A model generated the notes under the pieces. The model had not been told where the DNA came from, searched no databases, and saw only the letters and a list, made by a program, of their open reading frames with translations. A program made the translations under genes and the position numbers. A stretch of DNA of 64,000 nucleotides from positions 107,050,893-107,114,892 of the forward strand of contig OY294044.1 of assembly GCA_958510825.1 (NCBI GenBank), in the 5' to 3' direction. This DNA is from Brachypterus glaber (taxonomy: Eukaryota; Arthropoda; Insecta; Coleoptera; Kateretidae). How positions within the stretch are numbered: position 1 is the stretch's first letter; each line of letters opens with the position of its first letter. This document shows positions 7,103-63,017 of this stretch, in pieces.

Positions 7103-8018
7103 CAGTTGCGAGAAAAACCGTTGCGAAATAGGAGTGAGTGAAAGTGAGTGAAAGTCTGTGGGACCCCACACGGTTAATGGCGTCCCAAATTTATTTTAAC
7201 ATTTTACAATTTTTGTAAGTTAAAGTAAGCTAAATATTGCTTATAATTTATTACCAAGTTACTATTTTATACATATTTTTCTGGTTGAAACTTAATTCAG
7301 CCAGGGAAATATTTGTTGCTGGCTAACATTATTTATTCATTTGGGGGTAAATCTAGCAAAGGGAGGCTTATTGACGTATTATGGGAGTTTTATAGTCATA
7401 TTATGGGAGTCTTAAAGGCACATTATGGGAGTCTTATGGGACAAGCGACCCGAAAGCTCTTTAAGGCTAATTCAAATATTTCGCATTCGCCGAAAGCTCC
7501 CAGGGGCTGAATATGGGACATCCCATGGAATCTTATTGTGGGAGCTCCCTGGAAACTCCCTGGAAGTAATTTTTTTGACTGGGACATTTGTATGGACTAC
7601 TTGAAACCTTTATGTCAAAGCTGCTTATGTTTGAATGAATATAATACCAGCCATTTTTCTTTCGCAATTATTATTAATTATTATTATTATAAAAATGGTT
7701 TATGCCCCTTATTTCCCCATATGATAAATACTATATTTAAATATAGTACTTAAAAAACAGACTATTTTATACCGTCATAAATAAAATAACTTTCAAAATG
7801 GAGGCACATTTAACCTATATAAATAAGGGATAGGCAAAATAAACATTGCTTTTAAATTAAAGCTCACTTGGTTAGTACAGTAAGTGGACATACATCCCTT
7901 GCGACATGCGGTGATAATGGAAACCCCAGTTCTAGTTTTTCCTGCGAGGAAATCAGGTCAATTGTTTTATTACATTTTCCTGGGGTGCACCACTAGAATG
8001 ACCAGCTGGATACGCTTA
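7103..8018. other. Gene-free interval with degenerate TTATGGGAGT words
   Basis: Between 7376 and 7560 the phrase TTATGGGAGTCTTA and variants recur about five times. The open frames 7313-7510 and 7538-7753 follow these words and show no protein family. Nothing else was recognised. Confidence 0.4.
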
Positions 8019-8258
8019 TACCGGGTGGGACAGAATACTGGTACACCCCTATAACTTTTTTGTTTATTAATTTATCAAAATTAAATTAAGAGAATGTAAA
8101 TAATTGAAAGAACTGCGTTTTTTGACATTGTAAAAAAAATCTGTCGCTTCCGGTTTCTTTGGAAATGACTACAACTTTTGATTTTTAAATAGAACACCCT
8201 ATATGTTTTTACTTATTGCGATTCAGAATTTAATTCTGAGTACAACCATGTATAATTT

Positions 8259-8611
8259 ATTATTCCATCAATCTATTTTCTAATCATCGTACAGAGTGAT
8301 ATTGGTAGACTGACAGTTTCGGGCTACCATTCAAAGTCTCCAGATTAGGAGAGGTATGAGTAGTTGTCTACATCTAGAAATAGATGGCGCACAAGTCTAC
8401 ATCAATCTAATGGCTATATTCCTTTTGCGAGTAAAGTCTAAAAACGTTTTCTTAATCAGCGTGCAGATTTGACTCTTGGTACTGAAGAGGGCCAGCAGCC
8501 CGAAACTGTCAGTCTACCAATATCACTCTGTACGATGATTAGAAAATAGATTGATGGAATAATAAATTAATATTTTTATAATTTTGTTTAAAATTAAAAA
8601 TTTCTGTCCTT
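8259..8611 (+). mobile_element. Small hammerhead retroelement inside the mariner-type element
   Basis: A 353-bp insert flanked by a perfect 14-bp direct repeat ACCATGTATAATTT (8245-8258 and 8612-8625). It has inverted arms of about 70 bp (8254-8327 and 8496-8567); the right arm holds the 3' half of a complete hammerhead ribozyme, the left arm only an inverted 3' half. It carries no coding frame. The variable-length TSD and inverted terminal unit fit a non-autonomous Penelope-like insertion or retrozyme (inference). Confidence 0.7.
8476..8520 (+). ncRNA. Hammerhead ribozyme, type I, complete
   Basis: Stem I arm TTGGTA (8476-8481), core CTGAAGA (8482-8488), stem II GGGC/GCCC (8489-8492 and 8498-8501) with loop CAGCA, core GAAA (8502-8505), minimal stem III ACT/AGT (8505-8507 and 8511-8513), cleavage triplet GUC ending at C8514, and return arm TACCAA (8515-8520), fully complementary to TTGGTA. 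Every required core position is present. Confidence 0.85.
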
Positions 8612-8974
8612 ACCATGTATAATTTGTCAATTGTTGACAGTTGTCATTTTTCAATTAAGTTTTAATTTTAAATCTAGTTAGCTTTGAAATATGCAAAATT
8701 ATTCTTGGCTTAGTACTTTTCTTAGGAAAAATATGAAACAACGTTTTATTTAATTATTAACCAATTTGGTCTTTAATACTTGACAAATCATTTTTTTTTC
8801 AATAAAACTATTTTTTTTTAAAGGGAAGGTACTGGTACCGAGTACCATCGTTTTCATAATAAACGCTTACACCTAAAAATGTTACAGATTATATTGAACT
8901 TTATCAAGGTCTCTTTGAAATTTATTTGTCAAATATTATTATGACATTACTTGTCAAAATAATTCACATTAGTT

Positions 8975-9365
8975 ATGCCGCAGCTTACAAATTATCAAAA
9001 ATGTATTATAACAGCAAGAATAAATGACGGGATAAGTGTACGTGAAATAGCCACTGAATTAAATGTTGCAAACAGCACTATAATGCGAGCAAAGAAAAAA
9101 CTTGAGGAAACTGGACAGATTAGCAGCAAGCGGGGTTCTGTTCGAAGTAGAATGAGTAGTGCAGACGAAGATATGCAATTAATGAATTATCTGCGGGAAA
9201 ACCCTTTCCATACCGGAGTCAGAGCGAGGGAAGAAACTAACTTTTCTGGGTCATAATGCTGAAGAATTACGACAGGCCATCATTGAGGCTTGGCACGCAA
9301 AAATTACACCAAATTACACAAACCAACTGTTAGAATTACAAAGAAGATTTTTTTATTTAAAATAA
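8975..9365 (+). pseudogene. Mariner-type transposase with catalytic domain deleted
   Basis: The first 93 codons (8975-9256) form the N-terminal paired-type helix-turn-helix DNA-binding region: MPQLTNYQKCIITARINDG, SVREIATELNVANSTIMRAKKKLEETGQ, then RSRMSSADEDMQLMNYLRENPF and ETNFSGS. From 9249, shifted by one frame, the last part of a mariner transposase follows (LRQAIIEAWHAKITPNYTNQLLELQRRF) to a stop at 9363-9365. The DDE catalytic domain that normally lies between is missing, so no active enzyme can be made. The retained DNA-binding half could in principle act as a repressor (inference). Confidence 0.8.
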
Positions 9366-10350
9366 GTCACTCTTGATGATGTTTTTTTTTCTTTATATTT
9401 TTGAAGACACTATTTTGAAGAAAAAAACATTATCCCATGAACCATAAGAGTTGTACAAAAAGCGCTTAGTGTTTTGGGAGTTTAAAATCAAGCAGGGCAA
9501 GTTATAAAGAGTGACTTTTTTTGAGATCAAATAAAAAATAAAAAATAAATTCCTCTTTGTAACTCTATCTGGAGACATACTGTATAAATATCATTTATAA
9601 TAAAATTTGTAAACCTTTTTGCTTATAAGCATATATGCTTAAAGACAGTTATAGGACTTGCACTATATAATATAGACTGTACTTTAACCTTACTTAATTA
9701 TTACGGAAAATGTCAGTGTCAATCTTAGTAAAGTACATATACCACAACTAAAAATTTAAAATGTTGGGGTACCTCAGGGTTCTGTGATGTGAGCGTTTTC
9801 TATGAAAATGATGGTACCATTAAATCACATGTTTTCTTCTTAAAAGATTGATACCAATATCATTATATTTTAATCAAAAATTATTTTCAAAAAATTACTA
9901 AATTTAGTCATAATCTAATATTAAATTTAATTAAAAAACTACATGTTCTATCAAAATTTGACAAATAAATAAATAAATAAATAAATAAAAATAATACATA
10001 GTTGTACTCACATTTTAATTCTTAATCAAAATATGTAAAAATATACAGGGTGTTCCATTTAAAAATCATAAGTTGAGGTCGTTTCCGGCGAAAAAGTGAC
10101 AATTTTTTTAAAATGTCAAAAACGCAATTCTTTCATTTATTTACATCCTCTAAATTTAATTTTGATTAATAAACAAAAAAGTTATAGGGGTGTAACAGTA
10201 TTTATGTCCCACCCGGTATACATAGAAAAAATTGTTAACATCGATTGTTTTTAGAAGTCACTATTATTTTTTTTTCAACAAAACTACTGCTACTAGTCAC
10301 AAGATATTACTATTTTTCGCCCTTTTTATCCAGATGTCACTAATAACTCA

Positions 10351-13352: not shown

Positions 13353-13912
13353 ATTGTGATAGCATGTCGCGTTTGAACCCGCCACGGTAGTCCGGTTAAT
13401 GACCGCCATATACAGTAGCGCCCTTGGCAGCATGGACATTAAACACGACCTTTCTTATCGTGGAGATGACTTGCTGCTGGTCAAGACCGAGCCCCACAAC
13501 TCCCCCACCACTAGTAACGGCCTAAGTCACATCCTAGCCTCGAATAACGGGTTAATTACCACCCTCCCTGGTGGTACCATCGGTGGTACCATCGGCGGTA
13601 CGATTCTCACTTCCGGTTCCACTTTATCCGGTTTATCCGCGTTATCAAACTCGAACGGTACCAACAACGTAAACTCAAACGGACTCAGTTCGGGACCTTT
13701 TAGTGGATTGGGGAATACGAGTGGTACCAGTGGGAACGGTAACAAACGGGCGCGGAACGACGATTGGTTGAGTTCGCCGGGCGCGAGGACGGTGGCGCCG
13801 CCACTGACGCCGTCGCCTGGACCGCAGCAGTTTACGGTGATCAGCAGTAATGGGTATTCATCGCCGATGTCCTCAGGAAGTTATGATCCTTATAGTCCTA
13901 ACGATAAAAGTG
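13353..13912 (+). CDS. EcR: Ecdysone receptor EcR, isoform-A-specific first coding exon (partial gene)
   Basis: The ecdysone receptor is the nuclear receptor that, with ultraspiracle, binds 20-hydroxyecdysone and activates moulting and metamorphosis genes. This exon encodes the variable A/B (AF-1) region of isoform A; the DNA-binding and ligand-binding domains lie on later exons outside the window. Coding starts at ATG 13399 and runs 171 codons plus one base to 13912, where GTAAGT follows (phase 1). Visible motifs: VKTEP at residues 28-32, matching a SUMO consensus and corresponding to IKIEP of fly EcR-A; three GGTI repeats at 58-69; a Ser/Asn/Gly-rich linker; KRAR at 116-119 followed by NDDW; PPLTPSPGP at 134-142; NGYSSPMSSGSYDPYSP at 151-167. 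The last three are the conserved EcR-A signature. An acceptor-like T-tract plus TTCCAG ends at 13352, and an in-frame TAG at 13360-13362 supports ATG 13399 as start. Met12 (13432) has a stronger Kozak context (A at -3, G at +4). The exon is clearly more GC-rich than its surroundings. Confidence 0.88.
13364..13390 (+). promoter_or_regulatory. Upstream open reading frame (8 codons) in the EcR-A leader
   Basis: An ATG at 13364 opens an eight-codon reading frame (MSRLNPPR) that stops at TAG 13388-13390, nine bases before the EcR-A start codon. If the exon begins at 13353 the uORF lies in the mature leader and could lower or condition translation of EcR-A. The reading frame is seen directly; the regulatory effect is inference. 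Confidence 0.4.
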
Positions 13913-13918
13913 GTAAGT
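13911..13918 (+). promoter_or_regulatory. Splice donor of the EcR-A exon
   Basis: The coding sequence reaches TG|GTAAGT, with intron GT at 13913-13914. This is a consensus donor, and it falls exactly after the conserved SYDPYSPN-type end of the isoform-A region, where fly EcR-A joins the exon shared by all isoforms. Confidence 0.8.
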
Positions 13919-14030
13919 AAAAGCAAAAATGTAATAGTAACAAAATAGCTGGGTAATTCCATAGTTATATAAAACATTTTACTATTCCTTAAAACGACTT
14001 TTGTTTGATTAACGCAGTCGTCCCTCCGAA

Positions 14031-14073
14031 GGGACTGATCGATTTCGTGCTTTTTAGCACTCTTCAGAGCCAC
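14031..14073 (-). ncRNA. Hammerhead ribozyme, inverted-arm copy (stem I weakened)
   Basis: On the - strand the order is AGCCAC complement arm (14068-14073), CTGAAGA core (14061-14067), stem II GTGC/GCAC with a six-base loop, GAA, and the small palindrome ATCGAT. The far arm of stem I is AGTCCC instead of AGTCAC, so stem I is shorter than in the three + strand copies. Confidence 0.5.
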
Positions 14074-14200
14074 ATATCGGTAGTAGGGACAACTACGAAA
14101 ATCAAATCCTGTTTTTGCTTTTCCTTACAACGATTTTTAAACTCCATATAGAGATATATGGAAAGGATTTGATTTTCGTAGTTGTCCCTACTACCGATAT

Positions 14201-14243
14201 GTGGCTCTGAAGAGTGCTAAAAAGCACGAAATCGATCAGTCAC
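14201..14243 (+). ncRNA. Hammerhead ribozyme, type I, tandem copy 1
   Basis: Stem I arm GTGGCT (14201-14206), core CTGAAGA (14207-14213, fits CUGANGA), stem II GTGC/GCAC (14214-14217 and 14224-14227) with loop TAAAAA, core GAA (14228-14230), tiny palindromic stem III ATCGAT (14231-14236), cleavage position C14237 (triplet AUC), and stem I return arm AGTCAC (14238-14243; six pairs, one G-U). A very short self-complementary stem III is usual for retroelement hammerheads, which may act as dimers. Confidence 0.75.
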
Positions 14244-14636
14244 TTCGGAGGGACGACTGCGTTAATCAAACAAAAGTCGTTTTAAGGAATAGTAAAATGT
14301 TTTATAGAGATTTTTTAAATTTGTAAATATCAAACAATTTAATTTAGTTTATTAATTCAGATACCACTGTAAAAGGTGCCCTCCTAGCGTTTAAGATTCA
14401 ATTGGCGGCAATGTCCACCGTGGCATTGATTAATCTGCCCCCTATCGACAGCGTGCAATAGGTTCTTGAAACCAATAACTGCTTCCTTTTTTGGACTGTC
14501 GATAGGTTTATCCAGTCTCTGCTTTTAGCAGTAGATGTCGCTAGCTGTTTTTGCTTTTCCTTACAACGATTTTTAAACTCCATATAGAGATATATGGAAA
14601 GGATTTGATTTTCGTAGTTGTCCCTACTACCGATAT

Positions 14637-14679
14637 GTGGCTCTGAAGAGTGCTAAAAAGCACGAAATCGATCAGTCAC
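14637..14679 (+). ncRNA. Hammerhead ribozyme, type I, tandem copy 2
   Basis: Exact copy of the motif at 14201-14243, displaced by 436 bases, with all core and stem positions retained. Confidence 0.75.
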
Positions 14680-15072
14680 TTCGGAGGGACGACTGCGTTA
14701 ATCAAACAAAAGTCGTTTTAAGGAATAGTAAAATGTTTTATATAGATTTTTTAAATTTGTAAATATCAAACAATTTAATTTAGTTTATTAATTCAGATAC
14801 CACTGTAAAAGGTGCCCTCCTAGCGTTTAAGATTCAATTGGCGGCAATGTCCACCGTGGCATTGATTAATCTGCCCCCTATCGACAGCGTGCAATAGGTT
14901 CTTGAAACCAATAACTGCTTCCTTTTTTGGACTGTCGATAGGTTTATCCAGTCTCTGCTTTTAGCAGTAGATGTCGCTAGCTGTTTTTGCTTTTCCTTAC
15001 AACGATTTTTAAACTCCATATAGAGATATATGGAAAGGATTTGATTTTCGTAGTTGTCCCTACTACCGATAT

Positions 15073-15115
15073 GTGGCTCTGAAGAGTGCTAAAAAGCACG
15101 AAATCGATCAGTCAC
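15073..15115 (+). ncRNA. Hammerhead ribozyme, type I, tandem copy 3
   Basis: Third copy at the same 436-base spacing, core and stems unchanged. Cleavage at copies 1, 2 and 3 of a transcript would release 436-nt monomers. Confidence 0.75.
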
Positions 15116-15237
15116 TTCGGAGGGACGACTGCGTTAATCAAACAAAAGTCGTTTTAAAGAATAGTAAAATGTTTTATATAGATTTTTTAAATTTGTAAAT
15201 ATCAAACAATTTAATTTAGTTTATTAATTCCATAGTT

Positions 15238-16617
15238 GCTTACGTTAAATCTTACGCCTATTTTAAATTTTAAATGTATAAATTTGTAAATTATATTAAA
15301 AGACATAATATTTATAATTTGTATAATATGTTTAATTTGTTATAAATTTATAATGTTATGTAATGTTGCTTACGTTACATTTTGTAGCATAGATTTTGAC
15401 TTAAGTACATGTATCTTTAAATTTCTGTTCTATTCCAGAATATAAAATCTTTTTAAAACTAAATGTGCATTTAAAAATGTTTAAGAAATCAGGCTAGAAT
15501 GTTTTAAATCTTTAACAATTGCTGAGTTATGTATTAAAAGATAAAATATCTGTTGCTTACGTTACAAGGGAATTCGTTGCTTACGTTACATTAAAAGTCC
15601 CTATATTTTTTTGCATTATAAACTGACTATCTTGACAATATTTTGCATTACCGAGAGTGTACATTGACTGGTATACTTTCAGTTTTTGTCCTATGTATTA
15701 CAGTTATATCGGGAATTTTCTACTGTAGAAAATTCTAGTGAGAATCGCTGTAGTATTTTGTTTTTCAGTATTTCTCTTTAACAAGATTTCATACCTAAAA
15801 CTAATTAATAATTAAATATGAATATATTATTGTTTATAATTATTGTTATTACTTTATTATTTACCCAAAAATACCACAAATATTCTTTTTATAAAATGTA
15901 ATGACAGTTTTTTTAGGTGGACTTTTATGAACATGCCTAGCGCAGTACCACGCTAGTCAGTACTGCAGTAAGTGACTTAACTCTTGGCAGAACCATAATT
16001 TGCAATTTAAAAATGGACAAAAAAGGTTTTAGTTTAGCAATTGAGAATGGAATTAAATAAATCAAATTAAAGAATATGCCTGTAAAAAGATTAAAATAAG
16101 TAAGACATGAAACAATTTATATCATTTTGCGATGAAAAAAATTGGTTTGGTATTATAAATCGTTAAAAAATAATCTCCCGAATTGCACATGATTCTTCGA
16201 ATTATCGGGAAAAATTCACAGTTTTCATTTAAGGTTGCTGTCAAAGGAAATAATTACTCCAATGCCCCGATCGTAATTATTTCCAGACAGCAAATTTTCA
16301 TGAAAACAGCAAATTTTTCCCGCATAATTGTCAGCCTCTCGTCTAATTATATATGAAAATTTTATTGCATTTAGGAAATAAAATAAATGCTGGATAAATT
16401 TCGGTACTAACATTTATAAATAGATATAGATATCAAATCCTTACAAAACATACACCGTAAAAAAGCTTTTTGTTGCGTCATTAGGAATGATTCTGTGGTT
16501 GAAAAAGTTTAATCCGAATGTAGAGAAAGAGAAATAATGGGAAATAACAATAATAAGTAACAATTCAGTCATAGGTAAAATAAAATTTTTATGTGTTTAA
16601 ATAAATTTATATCTAAA
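15238..16617 (+). other. EcR intron, AT-rich, with four GTTGCTTACGTTA motifs
   Basis: The exact 13-mer GTTGCTTACGTTA occurs at 15235-15247, 15365-15377, 15552-15564 and 15576-15588. The core TTACGTTA resembles bZIP (PAR or E4BP4-type) sites. No coding frame or mobile element was recognised in the interval. Confidence 0.5.
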
Positions 16618-45758: not shown

Positions 45759-46283
45759 ATGCACCATTTTAAAACAGCTCTCATTAATCAAGAAACCCAC
45801 ATAAAACACACCCGTAATTGGATTACGAGAAACGACTGTAAACATGCAAGAGCAGCCCTTCCCACTCCGTGTGAAAAGATAGCACGCTTTTGTATGCAAC
45901 TAAAAAGGGATAACCTAAGACAGTTTGCAAGCATCGTAACAGGTCACTGCAAACTAAATAAGCATCTTAACATCATGGGGAAGCCAGTCGACCCCATCTG
46001 TAGAGGATGCTACATGGAAGAGGAAACAATGGAACATGTGTTATGTCACTGTCCAGCGTTAGCCTTAATAAGAGGGTCCATGCTAGACGAGTACTGGCTC
46101 GACATGGCCGGTATAAGCAGCATCACTCCCAGACATCTTCTTAGATATATTCAAAGAATTGGATGGCTGAGAGGTTAAATTAAATGCTGCGACCAAAGGG
46201 AGGTAGTACAATGGGCCCAGCTAAGTGGCCTAAGTGCGTGTAGATAGCTACCCTTCACCCTAATAACCATAACCATAACCATG
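45759..46283 (+). pseudogene. LINE 3' end: RNase H-side C-terminus with CCHC-like motif
   Basis: The 139-codon frame 45759-46178 ends like the last part of ORF2 in I/R1/Loa-type LINEs: FASIVTGHCKLNKHLNIMG, then C-x2-C-x9-H-x4-C in ICRGCYMEEETMEHVLCHCPA, then RHLLRYIQRIGWLRG. This Cys/His motif follows the RNase H-like region in such elements. A 3' untranslated stretch ends in a short ATAACC repeat at 46263-46281, a typical LINE tail. The RT and endonuclease parts are missing (5' truncation). Confidence 0.7.
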
Positions 46284-46718: not shown

Positions 46719-48640
46719 AAGATAAGATAAGATAAGATAAGATTTATTTGGTGATATCACAATAGTATTACACAAGTCAAATAAAAGGAAAAATATAAAT
46801 AATTATAATGCACGAGCACAATTTTAAAAAATTTAAATATTAAAAAAATAAATAAATTGTACATATTTATACAAATAAAAAACAGAAATTAAAACTTTAC
46901 TGCTGGACAGACCTTCCCCAAAAACTCATCTGTGCTATGATAAGCTTTAGATACCAAAAATTCTTTAACCTCCTTTTTAAACTGCTTTAAAGGGAGTTCT
47001 TTTAGAGAAGAGGGTAAATGATTATAAAATAGTATACCATGGTAGTTGGTGCTATCTCTACTAGAGGCAAGCCGAAGGAATTTCACCCTAAATTTTTTTT
47101 GAGAACTAGTGTTATAATTGTGAAAATCACTATTTGTTGCATACTCATCTAAATTTTCATGAACATGTAGTAAGCACAAATATACGTATAAGGAGGGTAA
47201 TGTTAAAATACCCAACTCTATAAATTTACTTTTTACCTCGGCTCTAAAACCCAACCCTGATATTATACGCACTACTTTTCTCTGTAATCCAAATATCCGT
47301 GATAGTAGTACTAGTAGCGTGGCCCCAGCTAATCAAGCCATATGCCATTTGCGAAGAAAACAAAGCACAGTAAGCTGTAATAAGTATAGAGGAAAGTCAC
47401 CTAATTTCGGATACCTTTTACAATGTATTCAATATTTAATACTCGGTATTACTTTTTGATATTTTTTTTATATAACCAGATACAACTTATTATAGCGAAC
47501 CATGATTTATTATAAAAGCAATTTTATTACAGTTTATTTTTTCCAAAAAACACGGTTAAAAAAAATCAGCGCATTTTTGTGCATTTGAAAAAGGGCTCCT
47601 AATTTCGGACATATCCGAAAAATTTTTTTCAAGAGTAGATCCTGATCCCATTGCTTATGTTTCTTGTTATTCCTTCACATTTAAGACGTAATTTAATCAT
47701 TAAGCGATTTTCTACGAAATACTATAGGAACTATAATTTTAGATTCCCAATTTCGAATATCTTAGTATCTTAGGTAATTTTCGTTTTTTCAAAATTGTGT
47801 ATCTTAGTTTGTTGTATCATTATAAAAATAATAATTAATGGTTGGTTATCCTGAATAATAATTACCTTGCGGATATCCGAAATTGGGAATCAAATGCACA
47901 AAAATGGTCTATCCAAAATTAGGCAACTTTCTGCCTTTTAGATTAGAAATTTGTAGAATGTTTACGTTTTCAAATTGCTTAATTATGAATAGTGGATCAA
48001 CTTAACTAACATCATAACTTACCCAAGACAGAATCACGAACTTTTATAACGATTATTCATAAAATAAACAAACATAATAATGCAACTGAGCACAAAACTG
48101 CCATTTGCAATATAAACGATTTGTGCTGCCATTTAAAGGGGAGAAGCTCTACCGTTATCATATTACAGGACGGATTTAGTTTGACTTTTGGCTTCGCATA
48201 AAAGTAGGTTTCTGTTTACCTTTGCAGACAGTATCTTAAATACACTACTATCCGAAATTTGGAAACCATCCGAAATTAGGCGCATTTCCTCTATGTTGGT
48301 TTAGGGAGTTGGCAAGCTGTCTCATTGCATAAATGCTTCGTGACAATTTTTTAGCTAAAGCTTCAATATGTTGGTTCCAGTTAAGTTTAGGATCTAAATA
48401 TAGTCCCAGGAACTTTGCTTTTTCAGGATTGTCAAAAACATCCGTTGATCTGTGTGTGAACAACATATTAATAGTTTTATTAGAGTTTAGAGTTAAATTG
48501 TTGGCTTTAAACCAACTCTTGGCGTTCGACTGCGTTTCCTCCATTCTTATTAAACAATCATTCAATGCAGAACTTTTGTTAATGAATGTGGTATCATCTG
48601 CGAAAAGAGTTGTGATGGTATCATCATTTACTGACTTTAC
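46719..48640 (-). pseudogene. Jockey-type LINE, 5'-truncated, split by a TA insertion
   Basis: Read on the - strand from 48640: the RT catalytic box LFADDTTF (FADD of motif C) near 48600, WFKANNLTLNSNKT, then KFLGLYLDPKLNWNQHI and KKLSRSIYAMRQLANSL at 48300. The frame is broken by the insert 47389-48291, resumes with LITAYCALFSSQMAYGLISWG near 47360, shifts by one base near 47310, and ends in 46889-47272 (RIISGLGFRAE, LGILTLPSLYVYLCLL, FLRLASSRDST, FYNHLPSSLKELP). The 3' tail is a CTTAT repeat at 46719-46746. No intact enzyme is encoded. Confidence 0.8.
47389..48291. mobile_element. 903-bp TA-targeted element inserted in the LINE
   Basis: TA duplicates flank it (47387-47388 and 48292-48293). 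Inverted ends start GAGGAAA and continue CACCTAATTTCGGA / TCCGAAATTAGGCG. The phrase CCTAATTTCGGA or its inverse recurs at about 47590, 47880, 47925, 48250 and 48270. No transposase. Removing it with one TA copy makes the LINE frame continuous across the junction, which confirms the boundaries. Confidence 0.8.
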
Positions 48641-49990: not shown

Positions 49991-51121
49991 GTGTGTGAAG
50001 ATTTTGTACTTGTTTTTGTGTTTAGTGAGCTGTTTTATATTATTATTATGGTCGAGACGACTTCAAAAACCAAGTTTTTGGGACTCATCCTGGACGAAAA
50101 CCTAAATTGGAATTTACACATGGACGAAATGAGCAGGAAATTGAATAAAGCACTTTATTCACTCCGGATGCTGAGACCATATGTAAATTTAAATACCCTT
50201 AAAGTGGTCTACTCGTCTAATTTCCAGTCAATATTGAAATTTGGTATATTGTTTTGGGGACAATGCACGAATGTTAATGAAATCTTTGCCATACAGAAAA
50301 GTACAGTTAAAATTATGCTTGGGCTTAAATATAACGATTCCTGTAGAGGACATTTTACAAGAAACAATATCCTTACCCTCACGGGTCTCTATGTATATGA
50401 ACTTTTAATGTTTATTTTTAAAAATAATAGTTTATTTCAGGAAATGAGATGCGTAAGCGCAAGAAGTCTAAATTACAATTTACCTCGTCACAGACTTACT
50501 CAATTTGAGAAAGGATGCTTCTACTCATGTTTATCGGTTTACAATAAGTTACCAGAGTGTATTAAATTAACGCGAAACTTTAATAGGTTTAAAAATCTTG
50601 TGTTCAATTATTTACTTCAAAAAGAACCGTACACAATGACTGAGTTTATGTTGTAATTTTATATTTGTTAATATTTATTTGATGTAAAGTACCTTGTAAG
50701 TTTTTAATACTAAATTTTATAGTTTATGTAAGTTTATTTATACTTCCATTTTTATATATTTGTATTTATATTATGAGTTATATTCATGACAAATTTCATG
50801 TTCAAAATTGTATATTCATGTGAGTGTCACAAACGAATATTCCGTTTTAATTTACATTTTACATGTTTGTTTAACCTCGTACTATTCTACTTAATTAAGC
50901 ATCCCCTAAGTCCAGGACTTGTGTGGGCTAGTAGAAGAGGGAACCACCGGCTTATACTGACTTTCGAACCAGTTTCTAGGGATTGTCCGTTTCACTTATC
51001 GCCTTCGCCAAATTTCAATTATTAATTAAAGGCAAATCGGCGCCAGTGAGAATCGAACTCACGATAGTAGACTTGCTATGCATACGCGCTAGCCACTACG
51101 CTATGCCTTGATGAAATAAAG

Positions 51122-58850: not shown

Positions 58851-59265
58851 AATATCCTGTAGGATCCTATGTATATTTTTTTGTAGGGACAAAATTACAC
58901 AAGAAAATGTGAAAAACTTTTTGAATTTATAGAATTTATAAATTATTGTTATCGTTAAAACTGGGAAATTCCCTATAGAAAATATTTATTTAACAGTAGA
59001 GAGAGTGGGATGGAGACATACGTCGTTTCCAGATTAATCAGTCAGTTCCTGCAAATTCTATTTTTAGAGACCTACTTTTGTAGGCATTCAACATGACCTA
59101 CGATAAGCAATTCTTTATTATTTTATTCCAACTCTAACCCAATAAATTTATTTACATCGGCACTTAGTGCTACTAAGAGTCAAAATCTTTGACCACGTTT
59201 TTTTCACATTTCTCGACGTTTAAGACCATTCTGAGTCGAAATCAGTAAAAAAAATGTTTGCGTCC

Positions 59266-63017
<3,752 letters not shown>

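Follow-up and report, generated by a model that had tools for sequence, protein, structure and literature searches.

An insert in an intron of the EcR gene of the beetle Brachypterus glaber is, with a probability that we put at about 0.85, a metazoan non-LTR retrozyme placed there by the enzymes of Penelope-like elements (PLEs). The insert lies in a window, as we call the whole stretch of 64,000 nucleotides that was analysed, and it belongs to a family of 436-bp units with many copies in this genome. Ribozyme motifs, tandem units, target-site duplications (TSDs), fixed and reciprocal ends, variants shared by the two arms of an insertion and PLEs of the same anatomy can all be read in the DNA itself.

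Anatomy of the insert in the EcR intron

The sequence-only reading of this window had described a 1.26-kb insert bounded by an exact 13-bp TSD, carrying one inverted and three direct hammerheads on a 436-bp tandem unit. Its extent and duplications were borne out at the coordinates below, and the four hammerheads were found again with an Rfam model (Hammerhead_HH9, RF02275; hereafter HH9) and with a separate descriptor. Positions within the unit run from u1 to u436, where u1 is the base just 3' of the predicted ribozyme cut (14238, 14674 and 15110, the same 5' ends as first predicted).

13954-13966, no strand: left TSD, 13 bp, TAATTCCATAGTT, exact copy of the right TSD
13967-15224: retrozyme insert, 1,258 bp, between the exact 13-bp duplications
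13967-14110, minus strand: antisense arm, from u70 back to u363, with one hammerhead
14015-14085, minus strand: antisense-arm hammerhead, HH9 21.5 bits, E 0.024, predicted cut between 14037 and 14036
14109-15224, plus strand: sense arm, about 2.56 tandem 436-bp units, ending at u115
14189-14259, plus strand: hammerhead 1, HH9 28.4 bits, E 1.5e-4, predicted cut 14237/14238
14625-14695, plus strand: hammerhead 2, HH9 28.4 bits, E 1.5e-4, predicted cut 14673/14674
15061-15131, plus strand: hammerhead 3, HH9 28.4 bits, E 1.5e-4, predicted cut 15109/15110
15225-15237, no strand: right TSD, 13 bp, TAATTCCATAGTT, of which the initial TAATTC (6 bases) equally extends the unit

Repeat analysis of the insert gave a tandem period of 436 bp and 2.6 copies, with one base different between units 1 and 2 and one between units 2 and 3. 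The antisense arm is the reverse complement of 14600-14743, in unit 2, at 143 of its 144 bases, and the first bases of the sense arm (around 14109) are ambiguous with it. This inverted piece, left unexplained by the sequence-only reading, has the appearance of a second arm of reverse transcription in an insertion of Penelope type. The retrozyme has a G+C content of 36.0%, and no open reading frame of 100 amino acids or more was found between 13921 and 15237. Just 3' of the insert the motif GTTGCTTACGTTA occurs four times (15235, 15365, 15552 and 15576), the first copy being overlapped by the right TSD.

Regarding the ribozymes, the Rfam check that had been suggested gave a divided answer: HH9 matched at all four sites in a scan of 1.6 kb, to which the E values above refer, but every match stays under the gathering score of 52, and a scan of the whole 64-kb window at the gathering threshold returned no hammerhead. 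A descriptor independent of Rfam, made of the core, stem II, the closing pair and stem I, recovered the same four motifs plus a fifth at 8482, and produced a single match in total over 60 first-order Markov shuffles of the 64-kb window. The complete cores, paired stems I and II and tiny self-complementary stem III announced for this array can be read directly: a core CUGAAGA...GAAA, a stem II of 5 bp with an AAAA loop, a stem I of 6 bp including one G-U, plus an outer stem I, and a stem III consisting of a single A-U pair that closes the palindromic tetraloop UCGA. The motifs are thus of type I with a complete core, stem I being the open-ended helix in the HH9 alignment, and the antisense-arm hammerhead has one base changed, in stem I. 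They share with HH9, a motif of intronic setting in amniotes, the same core, stems and A-rich loop 2, but differ from it in score (28.4 bits at best against a gathering score of 52) and in belonging to a mobile family.

A one-bp helix III with a palindromic tetraloop is also described for the axolotl satellite hammerhead HHR_Amex1, which, as stated in the same source, cleaves poorly on its own (6% in an hour) and better as a dimer (PMC7229834). As stem III is here just one base pair, the hammerheads of the retrozyme probably act in pairs. The resemblance to the amphibian satellite motifs ends there, since sequence and host differ and the arrays described here are short and dispersed. The antisense arm and unit 1 could form a 143-bp hairpin, 99% complementary, while a computed fold of 13860-15300 pairs the antisense arm with unit 3 and covers the ribozyme of that unit; hence the ribozymes may be covered one at a time. 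An Rfam microRNA match at 14076-14198 (MIR7504, E 6.1e-11) was discarded, as its source is the long hairpin between antisense arm and unit 1, and it lies below its gathering score.

Fixed and reciprocal ends in two retrozyme families

The search for other copies with TSDs, proposed along with the first description, was fruitful: the host genome (648 Mb) holds at least 312 matches and at least 1,099 candidate places of the 436-bp family, of which 40 were scored. The ends were analysed in the window copy and 39 further loci, 40 in all, chosen as the top-scoring matches of a query that contains a long direct array, which makes long arrays over-represented among them. TSDs of 11-16 bp flank 33 of the 35 loci that could be tested, the exceptions being L021 (10 bp) and L030 (none), and that of L029 contains one mismatch. 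The identical procedure applied to mismatched pairs of loci, which is the matched control, gave 17 of 158; an earlier control, by a different procedure, had found duplications of at least 12 bp in 9 of 200 mismatched pairs. Target sites are biased, with AC 5' of the TSD in 16/33 cases and GT 3' of it in 18/33, against a background of 5% each; the EcR insert itself does not follow this bias, its TSD lying between GGG and GCT instead of AC and GT. In this regard, a plain satellite DNA, whose repeats would derive from unequal recombination and whose ribozymes would be relics, would account for units that are tandem and homogeneous, but we give it almost no credence in view of short dispersed arrays with TSDs at nearly all tested loci and paired ends, and of the 12-base ribozyme core, which is kept in 124 of 139 units (34 arrays).

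Head-to-head antisense and sense arms were found in 34 of the 40 loci, and six (L010, L012, L024, L030, L036 and L047) do not have an outer antisense arm. In all 34 two-armed copies, one end lies close to u70 and the opposite end close to u112. Measured in nucleotides after the predicted ribozyme cut, the first of these positions (site A) has a median of 70 and a range of 64-80, and the second (site B) a median of 112 and a range of 109-115 (n = 34 for each). The two sites are used reciprocally, with A on the left and B on the right in 23 copies, the reverse in 11 and the same site at both ends in none (Fisher 3.5e-9, n = 34). L030 was excluded from this count by hand because its only antisense words sit inside its sense array, and a blind count would make it a same-same case. 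Antisense arms measure 44-377 nt and direct arms 1,060-4,419 nt, a shortness of the former that we do not count as evidence of a mechanistic limit because the search favoured long direct arrays. Two other origins of the inverted arm were considered and rejected. A random inverted copy, or a snap-back of the first cDNA, does not agree with an outer antisense end that is fixed and an inner one that is variable, the opposite of what snap-back predicts; copying from the terminus of a template cleaved at the hammerhead does not agree with ends that sit 64-115 nt past the cut.

Sequence variants tell about the template of the two arms. Units diverge by 0.68% within one array and by 1.37% between arrays, and an antisense arm differs by 1.11% from its own array and by 1.51% from other arrays. 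We counted 49 sites that are array-fixed for a base uncommon in the family, where shuffling units among arrays gives a mean of 1.34, and at seven sites segregating between arrays a mixture of bases inside one array was seen for 7 of 238 array-sites. Moreover, array-fixed variants were found in the antisense arm of the same locus in 11/12 cases, compared with 33/204 in the antisense arms of other loci (p 8.5e-8). Nine of these 12 cases fall at two sites (u327 and u344), in independent insertions, and the lone exception is L026, whose antisense arm does not carry the variant of its array. The shared variants indicate that both arms were copied from RNAs of identical sequence, most simply from one molecule, and it is on them that this claim is based, since the divergence of the antisense arm supports it weakly. 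From the homogeneity of the arrays, a circular monomer is the favoured, although not proven, template; arrays that were uniform beforehand would give the same homogeneity through linear multimers.

The fifth descriptor match belongs to a second retrozyme of the window, which is built on a 354-bp unit and inserted in a DNA transposon:

8017-10220: DNA transposon with terminal inverted repeats, repeat pieces between 8017-8258 and 9989-10220
8245-8258, no strand: left TSD of the second retrozyme, 14 bp
8259-8611, plus strand: second retrozyme, 354-bp unit family, ends read directly at u49-55 and u97
8259-8325: antisense arm of the second retrozyme
about 8461-8532: hammerhead of the second retrozyme, predicted cut 8514/8515, descriptor match at 8482
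8612-8625, no strand: right TSD of the second retrozyme, 14 bp

No significant similarity was found between this element and the 436-bp family (best E 0.36). Its own family occupies at least 487 candidate places in the genome, 40 of which were scored, and 19 loci (the window copy and 18 others, picked partly for showing an antisense match) were examined. All 12 complete two-armed copies among them are reciprocal, with ends at about u51 and u98, nine oriented one way and three the other. Six of the remaining seven (L061, L064, L066, L072, L074 and L075) are cut by the limits of the stretch analysed, and L070 has no antisense arm; this locus, together with L072 and L075, in which no antisense arm was seen within the stretch analysed, may represent a separate class. 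Altogether, reciprocal ends were found in 46 of 46 complete two-armed copies (34 + 12) of two unrelated families.

The left terminal repeat of the transposon is interrupted by the second retrozyme, and the partner repeat aligns with that repeat until the end of the left TSD and poorly beyond, which fits the insertion point of the retrozyme and is not a clean empty site. A decayed transposase-like stretch can be seen by eye near 9000-9250 of the transposon. Elsewhere in the window, a 2.9-kb array of the tetranucleotide GTCT extends over 59262-62175 (728.5 copies, 99% matches), and four fragments (45759-46178, 46889-47272, 48248-48565 and 49991-50656) look by eye like C-termini of non-LTR reverse transcriptases, only the first of them giving a match in a Pfam scan (zf-RVT, below the cut-off).

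Penelope-like elements and the route of integration

A purified PLE protein cuts and extends both strands of its target, as reported by Frangieh et al. (2024, PMC11167929). In that in-vitro work, reverse transcription started at two adjacent internal sites of the RNA, the stretch between which corresponds to the genomic tail, and the cut position of the PLE ribozyme lay upstream of both start sites. The same paper describes the tail signature as unique to PLEs, demonstrates neither a requirement for cleavage nor the use of one site per strand, and presents the later steps of integration as 'yet to be validated experimentally'. Typical PLEs are described with inverted pLTRs, one of them bearing the tail (Arkhipova et al. 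2013, PMC3846280), and Cervera and de la Pena (2020, PMC7229834) suggested, on circumstantial grounds, that animal retrozymes are probably driven by PLEs. Among the titles and abstract openings listed for retrozymes with Penelope, hammerhead or Poseidon, none ties the ends of retrozymes to the start sites of PLEs.

The genome of B. glaber contains its own PLEs, with 31 GIY-YIG matches and, at C556, an open reading frame in a 3.0-kb tandem that combines a reverse transcriptase domain (RVT_1, 7.7e-10) with a GIY-YIG domain (1.3e-5). Five PLE copies were tested. Three of them (L051, L056 and L058) have a TSD and are all tailed at one end only, with tails of about 24-32 nt, and a TSD was not found for L053 and L054. 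L051 and L058 belong to the C556 family, and L056 was assigned to the PLEs because it has a GIY-YIG match and resembles L050. In the terminal repeat of L057 and L058, on the reverse strand, a hammerhead-like motif is seen with stems I and II and a palindromic CTAG loop on stem III; it was not accepted as a ribozyme, since the 5' half of its core is non-canonical and there is no Rfam match. No PLE with the retrozyme start sequence or with the AC/GT target bias was identified in this genome.

The likeness between retrozymes and PLEs comprises inverted head-to-head ends, a tail at one end, AT-rich targets and TSDs, as far as PLEs are characterized in PMC11167929 and PMC3846280, and for Poseidon of Anolis carolinensis also a hammerhead located upstream of the start sites of reverse transcription (PMC11167929). 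The spacing between the two ends is about 42 nt in the retrozyme, compared with the 30-40 bp reported for Penelope and with about 24 and 32 nt in the PLE copies of this genome, and the TSDs given for Penelope of Adineta vaga measure 8-10 bp (PMC3846280). In contrast to PLEs, the EcR insert is a 436-nt non-coding unit without a frame for a reverse transcriptase-endonuclease (none of 100 amino acids or more). Because the one-sided tail is common to two retrozyme families and to PLE copies, and corresponds to the stretch between the PLE start sites in vitro, the retrozymes of this genome were very probably mobilised by PLE enzymes.

Among known retrozymes, the insert agrees with the metazoan non-LTR class as portrayed in PMC7229834: type I hammerheads, tandem units in the 150-450 bp range, of which 436 nt is the upper end, low G+C (below 45-50%; 36% here), no open reading frame of 100 amino acids, a TSD longer than 4 bp and PLEs in the same genome. 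It differs in its second, head-to-head arm and its two fixed ends, and the word 'inverted' has no occurrence in the main text of that paper. The plant LTR retrozymes are likewise retroelements with hammerheads and a circular RNA stage, a circle that for the beetle element we infer, but they are presented in PMC7229834 with type III hammerheads, LTRs and 4-bp TSDs, whereas here we find type I motifs and a 13-bp TSD.

Insertion by a LINE is the other retrotransposition route that must be weighed. An L1- or R2-like element would have inserted a linear multimeric retrozyme transcript by twin priming, and the inverted piece would be an ordinary 5' inversion. The long TSD, the inverted 5' segment and the small junction homology (means of 2.1 and 1.5 bases) all speak for this route, and the zf-RVT match of the window, below the curated cut-off, comes from a fragment of non-LTR reverse transcriptase type. 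In twin priming, the second priming site is internal and variable. Both ends are instead fixed and reciprocal in all 34 two-armed copies of the 436-bp family, no poly(A) end appeared in the junctions inspected and the PLE copies of the host genome obey the same tail rule, which makes a LINE-type origin very unlikely.

For the PLE route, the cycle would start with transcription of a tandem retrozyme array, followed by cleavage of the transcript by hammerheads, probably paired, into 436-nt monomers that a host ligase would close into circles. A PLE reverse transcriptase-endonuclease would then make staggered cuts, about 12-13 bp apart, in the two strands of an AT-rich target. The two 3' ends so exposed would each prime reverse transcription on the same circle at one fixed internal site per strand, lying about 70 and 112 nt past the ribozyme cut. 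One cDNA would end within one lap and the other would go several laps, so that their head-to-head joining would generate the order observed of TSD, short antisense arm, multi-unit sense arm and TSD. Cleavage, circularity and the identity of the enzyme are the parts of this cycle that we infer. A more specific proposal is that PLE integration is itself concerted and two-sided, with a dimeric reverse transcriptase-endonuclease setting both staggered 3' ends on one circular RNA and leaving the tail on one end; retrozymes would then be minimal RNAs that serve the PLE machine, and reciprocal ends its footprint. We regard this proposal as only slightly better than an even bet.

The array within the EcR gene

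The insert follows an exon identified by homology to beetle EcR:

13399-13913, plus strand: EcR N-terminal coding exon, from the ATG to the splice donor
13914-13919, plus strand: splice donor GTAAGT, start of the intron, whose acceptor is at C1:107223497/107223498 (C1 being the contig)

The 171 residues of this exon matched 81 proteins at E 0.001 or better, namely beetle EcR N-terminal sequences, with identities of 48% (Cryptolaemus), 46% (Exocentrus) and 46% (Leptinotarsa) over 99% of the query, and of 47% over 93% of the query for Nicrophorus. Matches to zf-C4 follow on the same contig and strand (C1:107223599-107223673 and C1:107227338-107227475). The first DNA-binding-domain exon starts at C1:107223498 in a phase (G|GA) compatible with the donor (AGTG|GTAAGT), and the remainder of the domain is matched at C1:107227338, on the same strand. 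Assuming no exon between, the intron spans C1:107064806-107223497 and measures 158,692 bp. This homology, and the phase-compatible exons downstream, support the earlier statement that the array lies in sense orientation just past the EcR donor; its distance, first given as 42 bp inside the intron, needs correction, as the TSD starts at intron position 41 and the insertion point follows position 53. A second copy of the 436-bp family (L012, C1:107161936-107164312, plus strand) is present within the same intron.

Effects of ribozymes within other introns are known. In a rival reading the array would act on EcR, self-cleavage during transcription, just past the donor, lowering or timing the output of this isoform. 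Such a role would draw on the sense orientation, the intact cores, a position 53 nt from the donor of a 159-kb intron and the plus-strand copy L012. It would also draw on a complementarity, noticed after the fact, of the donor region (13910-13929) at 18 of 20 bases to a segment of each unit (14112-14131, 14548-14567 and 14984-15003), a value that none of 580 random windows reached (the best, 17, occurring twice); judging from base complementarity, these segments could pair with the donor and mask it. Against this, the complementary segment is family sequence, identical in 84/130 units, stem III has a single base pair, the antisense arm is able to pair with and block a ribozyme, and the spread of the family over the genome means that the site is no sign of recruitment. 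We consider an effect on EcR unlikely. With many copies genome-wide, nothing ties the insert to this gene, and the retrozyme most probably rides along as a passenger that leaves with the spliced intron or is cut now and then.

Even so, an array of ribozymes located 53 nt into a 159-kb intron offers a natural experiment on the cutting of nascent pre-mRNA. For the wider family, what is new is that the genomic ends of two retrozyme families bear the PLE signature, which links retrozymes and PLEs in sequence, and the question of which enzyme moves animal retrozymes can be put simply to the test with a single protein and a single 436-nt RNA. The reciprocal ends and the variants common to both arms also bear on PLE integration itself, and, if its concerted reading is true, animal retrozymes would be parasites of PLEs in the strict sense.
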